Position numbers and translations under genes: made by a program | Notes under the pieces: model-generated | Databases searched by the model: none | Told to the model about the DNA's origin: nothing | The model's input: the letters and a program-made list of their open reading frames with translations, nothing else | Assembly: GCF_900116425.1 (NCBI RefSeq) | Contig: NZ_FPAS01000002.1 | Coordinates: 142,537-206,536, forward strand | Length of the DNA stretch: 64,000 bases | Direction: 5' to 3' | DNA from: Lishizhenia tianjinensis | GTDB lineage: Bacteria > Bacteroidota > Bacteroidia > Flavobacteriales_D > Crocinitomicaceae | Part shown: positions 15,894 to 16,815 of the stretch, one piece after another | Layout: every line of letters starts with the position of its first letter | Numbering within the stretch: the stretch's first letter is position 1

Positions 15894-16815
15894 CTTGATT
15901 AGTCGCATAATTTCCATGACTTTTATTTGTTAAGGAAATTAAATTGACGTAACTTAAGATTCAACCTAATCTAAAATATCATGGACCTAACAACATTTAT
16001 CCAACAATTTGGAACCGAAAGAAAGTGCGAGAAGTTTGTTCAATCTCAAAGAGAAAAACACGGTGTTATCTGCACGTGTTGTTCTAAGAAAGTTAGCAAT
16101 TGGCGGTCGGTACAGAAGTATTGGCGATGTTCTTGCGGCAACAAAATTTCATTAAAAGCAGGGACCCTTATGGAGTCATCAAAATTGTCTTTGGCTGTTT
16201 GGTTTAAGGCTATGTTTTTAATGACTCATGTTAAAAAATCATATTCAATTTTAGAGCTATCTAGAATTCTAGGAATCAATCGCTATCGAACCGTTTGGTA
16301 TTTATCTATGAAGTTAAGGGTGGGGATGGGACAAGATTTGTTGGGCAAGGAATATTTTCAATTCTTGTATTTAATCTCTAAGGCTAAGGCTCAAACTTCT
16401 CAGTTGAAAGCAATTCAGAATTATTCTATCAGTGCAATTTTAAAGTCGAAAATCTATAAAAGGGATGAGATTAATTTAATTGCGCCGGTAGATGTTCTCA
16501 AGAAAGTAGAGGTAGAAGAATTTAACCTGAAACGCAAAGGGTATAGGTGTTTGAAGGTTTTCGGTGTGCAAAGAAAGATAGAACTTAAAGAAGTTCACTA
16601 TGCAGTAAAACCAGACGTTCAGTTATGGTTGAGTACTTTGGTTGCAAATTCCAATAGAATGCTCAATGGAATTCATCATGGTGTTAGTTTTTTACACCTT
16701 CAAAAGTATATGTTTGAGTATTCCTTTAACTATAATTTGAGGAGCCAGGATAAGTTTGAAAAATTGAAAAATTGTGTTCTGTTTTAAAGGATTGGAAAGC
16801 ATGCGACTAATCAAG
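15894..16815 (+). mobile_element. IS1595-like insertion element with intact terminal inverted repeats
   Basis: The ends are inverted repeats. CTTGATTAGTCGCAT (15894-15908) is matched perfectly by its reverse complement at 16801-16815. After two mismatches, six more bases match (TTTCCA inward), giving 21 of 23 identical. The 922-bp unit contains one gene, an IS1595-type transposase relative. The 8-bp flanks (15886-15893 and 16816-16823) differ, so no target-site duplication is seen. The element sits between the hemD terminator and pbp1A and does not break a gene. See the transposase entry for the degraded core. Confidence 0.85.
15981..16787 (+). CDS. IS1595/ISXO2-family transposase-like protein, probably inactive
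   Basis: A 268-aa protein. The N-terminal part matches the IS1595 zinc-ribbon region: cysteines 31, 34, 50 and 52, then KAGTLMESSKLSLAVWF and LELSRILGINRYRTVWYL. The extreme C-terminal part also matches the family (NRMLNGIHHGVSFLHLQKY). Between them, the usual VDE block, the second catalytic Asp and the Asn/Lys pair of the family cannot be found. The region 119-210 reads as unrelated or eroded sequence, yet the frame has no stop. The usual length is about 300 aa. It may be a defective copy moved by a relative in trans. Confidence 0.75.
   Translation: MDLTTFIQQFGTERKCEKFVQSQREKHGVICTCCSKKVSNWRSVQKYWRCSCGNKISLKAGTLMESSKLSLAVWFKAMFLMTHVKKSYSILELSRILGINRYRTVWYLSMKLRVGMGQDLLGKEYFQFLYLISKAKAQTSQLKAIQNYSISAILKSKIYKRDEINLIAPVDVLKKVEVEEFNLKRKGYRCLKVFGVQRKIELKEVHYAVKPDVQLWLSTLVANSNRMLNGIHHGVSFLHLQKYMFEYSFNYNLRSQDKFEKLKNCVLF

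Follow-up and report, generated by a model that had tools for sequence, protein, structure and literature searches.

To our knowledge, few domesticated transposases are known in bacteria, and the best-studied case that is linked to repeats, RAYT/REPIN, uses a DNA-processing HuH enzyme. The closest known insertion sequence family to the locus described herein is IS1595 (Pfam DDE_Tnp_IS1595, NCBIfam NF033547), in particular a subgroup with ends like TTGATTNNCCGCAANNNTACCA, and 8-bp target duplications are usual in this family (PMC8101967). Our analysis concerned one element within a 64,000-nucleotide stretch of the Lishizhenia tianjinensis genome (contig NZ_FPAS01000002.1, positions 142,537 to 206,536 of the forward strand), hereafter the window. 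As in IS1595, this element and its relatives comprise a single gene bounded by similar inverted ends in a unit of approximately 0.9–1.0 kb, and the gene product has a zinc ribbon, a helix-turn-helix region and a C-terminal motif. Unlike IS1595 members, the elements that we term core-less are devoid of the catalytic residues D1 and D2, of the third catalytic residue, and of 8-bp target duplications. No papers on catalysis-free IS1595 families were found among the open-access papers searched.

The arrangement also resembles RAYT (TnpA-REP) genes and their REPIN or BIME repeats, known together as REPtrons (PMC8266576), in that a transposase-derived gene under selection is accompanied by cognate intergenic inverted repeats, which are paired or single. 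It differs in the protein, which is of the IS1595/DDE rather than the HuH (Y1) type and is without catalytic residues, and in number: there are 17 paralogues here, each with its own repeat type, whereas RAYT/REPIN systems usually have one gene, and the repeats, which for some genes lie clustered close by, amount to tens as opposed to hundreds. MITEs and mobile insertion cassettes offer another parallel, as insertion-sequence ends in inverted orientation here also bound DNA that lacks a transposase gene, and in one case a DUF1801 gene. Copies of one MITE normally have a common interior; unlike these, the eight pairs with shared ends that we identified have mutually unrelated interiors. A final parallel is TldR, a nuclease-dead regulator of the TnpB type (named in PMC13418256), which is likewise a transposon protein without catalysis that is kept for DNA binding, a role that is predicted here. 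TldR is RNA-guided and belongs to another protein family, whereas the sites proposed here are the element's own ends, and the gene-less pairs gave no match to an Rfam RNA element.

Architecture of the window element

The element, whose features are collected in Table 1, is neighboured by hemD and a penicillin-binding protein. Its left and right 23-nt ends are identical at 21 of 23 positions, as the first-pass annotation had counted, and a longer stretch of the inverted repeat is 83% identical over 30 nt; its score of 19 exceeds those of all 200 shuffles, the best of which reached 14.8. The same annotation had reported an uninterrupted frame and no target-site duplication, and both hold, with 268 codons open and flanks that are free of direct repeats of 7 bp or more. 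A promoter scan of the element gave no excess over shuffles, and a search for anti-phage systems with PADLOC returned no match.

Table 1. Features of the window element (positions are counted from the first nucleotide of the window)
Feature	Position	Strand	Details
Whole TIR-bounded element	15894..16815	+	922 bp
Left terminal inverted repeat	15894..15916	+	23-nt core CTTGATTAGTCGCATAATTTCCA; weaker match reaching 15923
Right terminal inverted repeat	16793..16815	-	Reverse complement CTTGATTAGTCGCATGCTTTCCA
Core-less IS1595-type gene	15981..16787	+	268 aa, ATG start; 16 other homologues in the genome
Zinc-ribbon region, ~aa 11-60	16011..16160	+	Invariant Cys columns, Cys ligands kept; confident in model
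Helix-turn-helix-like region, ~aa 69-118	16185..16334	+	Best stretch of NCBIfam IS1595 match, aa 66-118; helices in model
Replaced core, ~aa 119-208	16335..16604	+	Without D1 and D2 (alignment with catalytic relatives); low model confidence
C-terminal IS1595-like region, ~aa 209-254	16605..16742	+	Third catalytic residue absent

Sequence profiles matched the window protein in part. Pfam DDE_Tnp_IS1595 aligned with the C-terminal part only (aa 188-252 to profile positions 88-153; E 9e-4, below the cut-off), NCBIfam transpos_IS1595 (NF033547) scored 63 bits relative to a cut-off of 75, and a zinc-ribbon model gave a weak match (E 0.36). These partial matches and the conserved Cys residues bear out the original description of a zinc-ribbon N-terminus and an IS1595-like C-terminus, the latter with conserved W216, N223, G230, H233, E246, YN and R254. 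Alignment with close catalytic relatives from the organism's own family placed no D1 (E-x-D-E), no D2 (S-D-K-S-T-S-Y) and no third residue, which is His in these relatives and Glu elsewhere, in agreement with the earlier statement that the catalytic residues are missing. The accompanying claim that an Asn/Lys pair is missing applies to the catalytic position, where none was found; an Asn (N223) with a basic residue after it is kept at a different position. Similarly, the approximately 90 central residues that had been thought unrelated do constitute a replaced core, but not a private one, as the same core type is present in all 17 paralogues. Core loss is used throughout as a statement on aligned residues, and activity is inferred from sequence alone.

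A structure model built from a 10-row alignment had pLDDT values below 50 in the core of the window protein and of a catalytic control alike. Given that the alignment is shallow, structure prediction is uninformative for the core, and the model was used for the N-terminus only. A fold search with this model, which is poor in the core, returned nothing significant, a sequence search of solved structures gave weak ribosomal zinc-ribbon matches only, and no recombinase domain was found in the core-less proteins.

The core-less family and its gene-less repeats in Lishizhenia tianjinensis

The window copy is core-less, and it is one of a family. Searching its genome (G000; 3.56 Mb, 13 contigs, 99.99% complete) and those of relatives for the ends and for full-length homologues identified 17 homologous core-less genes in L. 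tianjinensis, cognate gene-less pairs of ends, and catalytic relatives in other genomes. The other 16 proteins are 25–63% identical to the window protein, the frames of all 17 genes are intact, and no gene fragments of the family were found at the threshold used. D1 and D2, and likewise the third catalytic residue, are absent from every one of the 17 aligned proteins, which have in common a core type with an invariant K192 and nearly invariant D162 and L166, and the Cys columns of the N-terminal zinc ribbon are conserved across the family. NF033547 matches all 17 members, several with scores below its cut-off. No catalytic IS1595 gene was detected in this genome with two IS1595 models, as the matches of both were the 17 core-less loci only. 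The best matches listed in a plasmid search are IS1595-type proteins at 24–29% identity, most of them annotated as IS1595, and two matches on viral contigs carry D1 and D2.

Inverted ends bound 15 of the 17 genes, delimiting elements of 911–959 bp; recognisable ends are absent from L013, and the end pair of L009 lies beside the gene and not around it. Across the 15 end-bounded genes, the identity of the ends is 0.89 within an element versus 0.58 between elements, and end similarity tracks protein identity (Mantel r 0.59, with 0 of 5000 permutations as high). This trend is weaker once the five closest genes are removed (r 0.42, 303 of 5000 permutations), which counts against the domestication that we propose below.

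The end type of the window element is present at four other genes and at eight gene-less pairs. A genome-wide scan recovered it at genes L001-L005 and at these eight inverted pairs, which span 196–220 bp, with 0–1 matches in a reversed control. The ends of the eight pairs are 93% identical, their interiors are mutually unrelated, with similarity at shuffle level, and about half of the pairs sit between convergent gene ends. This pattern would be explained by old elements in which selection maintains the ends and the interiors drift; no orthologous gene-less pairs were found in which the conservation of ends and interiors could be compared.

A second genome-wide scan used the L010 and L016 ends and variants. 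The extra L016-type ends, 11 in number, are all on one contig, within ~23 kb of the L016 gene, and two L016-type pairs have mutually similar interiors. Genome-wide, close matches to the L009 and L014 ends are also near their own genes. Satellite ends occur near L006, L007 and L011 as well; the 20-kb locus around each of these genes was the main place searched, and the clustering is thus no independent evidence.

Several individual ends have noteworthy positions. An L006-type pair, 532 bp apart, encloses the complete DUF1801 gene in the manner of a mobile insertion cassette (L303:693-1223; G000:C2, ~1170.7-1171.2 kb). A single L016-type end with one mismatch lies inside the long open frame of a 1112-aa AAA-type protein (L290:12510; G000:C8:330511), and three L016-type ends in direct orientation fall within 240 bp (L289:5001-5238; G000:C8:303002-303237), followed by AT-rich repeats like AATTTGAAATT.

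Loss of the core and selection on core-less genes

In a tree built from N- and C-terminal columns only, the 17 L. tianjinensis genes form one clade (95/89), and five core-less genes from G006, a Crocinitomicaceae MAG and thus of the same family as the organism of the window, are nested among catalytic relatives. The starred branches of this tree require the core-less label to change at least three times, and the tree puts the loss of the core at three or more separate points in Flavobacteriales, with apparent multiplication after each. As the 17 L. tianjinensis genes have one core type, their multiplication most likely came after the core was lost. Most core-less relatives outside this genome likewise lack D1, D2 and the third residue. 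L022 (G019) has D1 only, having lost D2, and L352 (G335) has Asn at D1 and is without D2; both are possible intermediates of core loss.

Among the paralogues L001-L005, pN is 0.23–0.31 and pS is 0.69–0.86, which is near saturation; these values speak for purifying selection on the paralogues. For orthologues we turned to a congeneric pair elsewhere in Flavobacteriales, Cryomorphaceae bacterium RI_182 (G043) and Flavobacteriales MAG_179 (G263), in which seven core-less genes are syntenic. The first-pass annotation had proposed dN/dS as a check for purifying selection, and this check was run on these seven pairs, which represent another family of the order and not the genus of the window: overall dN/dS is 0.10–0.20, with regional values of 0.03–0.08 over the N-terminal 120 residues and 0.11–0.35 in the core, the ratios of two orthologue pairs being rough given that dS exceeds 0.9 there. 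These values suggest that natural selection maintains the core-less genes of related species.

In G043, the left end of each of L172, L173, L174 and L175 is a hairpin in which two copies of the end stand head to head, and comparison of the L175 hairpin with that of its orthologue L192 shows both arms changed in concert. Several end-like matches in G043 and G263, with 1–2 mismatches, were discarded as satellites because they fall within coding sequence that is conserved (C4/C75, C33/C160).

Proposed domestication and competing explanations

We consider it probable, though well short of certain, that these genes represent a dead IS1595 transposase domesticated as a predicted binder of its own end repeats. 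An IS1595-type transposase in a flavobacterial ancestor would have lost its catalytic core, and the core-less protein would have been retained as a sequence-specific DNA-binding protein whose zinc ribbon and helix-turn-helix may recognise the inverted ends (~22 nt) of the element that encodes it and the gene-less copies of those ends, with satellite ends as further candidate binding sites. The TIR-bounded unit would then have multiplied to 17 genes, the ends diverging together with the proteins, and any movement of copies would presumably have relied on another source of strand cutting and joining. The core-less proteins would be expected to benefit the host, and the outcome would be gene-plus-cognate-repeat systems in the manner of RAYT/REPIN (the REPtron) with a protein that has no recognisable catalytic residues. 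Such systems would be RAYT/REPIN-like in their working, yet not members of that group, as the enzyme class differs. If true, this would be an independent DDE-type case in which the core was lost several times and the remainder then multiplied and was selected along with the repeats that belong to it. One could then test what recognition is worth on its own, and the question is raised of what moves an element whose protein is without catalytic residues.

Evidence of recent movement comes, as does the evidence of selection on orthologues, from other genomes, several of which are MAGs. In G006, G043 and G263, near-identical ends of the core-less type are followed by unrelated flanking sequence where contigs terminate, which points to several recent copies. 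The C-terminal residues of these multi-copy elements are of the core-less type, and their core is unreadable because the middle parts are not assembled. In G263, an element of the core-less type, its core also unassembled, splits an NYN-domain gene whose G043 counterpart is uninterrupted; both junctions were found, and the split gene has since decayed and has no visible target duplication. For the multi-copy elements L321 and L325 (G043) and L322-L324 (G263), some insertion sites are common to both genomes, and the 5' ends seem to resemble each other more within either genome than across the two, as in gene conversion.

This continued movement also fits a selfish element. The first-pass annotation had offered two options: mobilisation of a non-autonomous element in trans, or repurposing of the protein for DNA binding. 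The dN/dS values and the ends that vary with their proteins favour repurposing, and the case for movement in trans by a relative is weaker in L. tianjinensis, where no catalytic IS1595 gene was found, but as history it may still apply, given that copies multiplied after catalysis was lost and that later insertions occurred in related genomes. The selfish alternative, which we regard as unlikely but worth serious consideration, would have non-autonomous elements moved in trans by a past or occasional catalytic IS1595 with similar end specificity, and the core-less protein kept since it helps to assemble the ends. Multiplication of one core type in one clade after core loss, the occurrence of catalytic relatives with similar ends in the bacterial family of the window, the near-identical ends with different flanks and the interrupted NYN-domain gene are all consistent with it. 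Against it, no catalytic IS1595 was found in G000, G006 or G043, seven genes at syntenic loci are under purifying selection, and ends follow each element's own protein. Furthermore, a direct repeat of at least 7 bp was found at the ends of none of the 41 core-less elements (24 with a gene, among them L022, which keeps D1, and 17 gene-less) compared to 12 of 19 catalytic relatives, a difference that either age or a different mechanism would explain.

We are similarly doubtful of split transposition, wherein the core-less protein would select and pair the ends, an unrelated host nuclease or recombinase would perform the chemistry, and the insertion sequence would multiply despite the loss of its DDE residues.

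It is very improbable that the replaced core has a different active site with which the proteins still transpose. Several lineages show movement after the core was lost, purifying selection reaches the core, and D162 and K192 are conserved among the 17 proteins, all of which would agree with such cryptic catalysis, but conservation is lowest in the core, the residues that the 17 proteins have in common there do not recur in the G006, G043 and G263 cores, and no nuclease match was obtained by sequence or by fold, the latter with a model that is poor in the core.

Equally little weight is given to the gene-less pairs being invertible segments whose inversion the core-less proteins regulate or assist. 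Promoter invertons are known from Bacteroidota, and the pairs resemble them in their identical inverted ends, unrelated interiors and similar lengths. However, a promoter switch would serve little purpose where gene ends converge, as they do around about half of the eight pairs; one larger pair encloses the DUF1801 gene, and the core-less proteins have no recombinase domain. Least credible are ordinary decaying insertion sequences with frames open by chance, which would account for the absence of catalytic residues and target duplications, but all 17 frames are intact though synonymous sites are near saturation, and the low dN/dS between syntenic orthologues contradicts decay.
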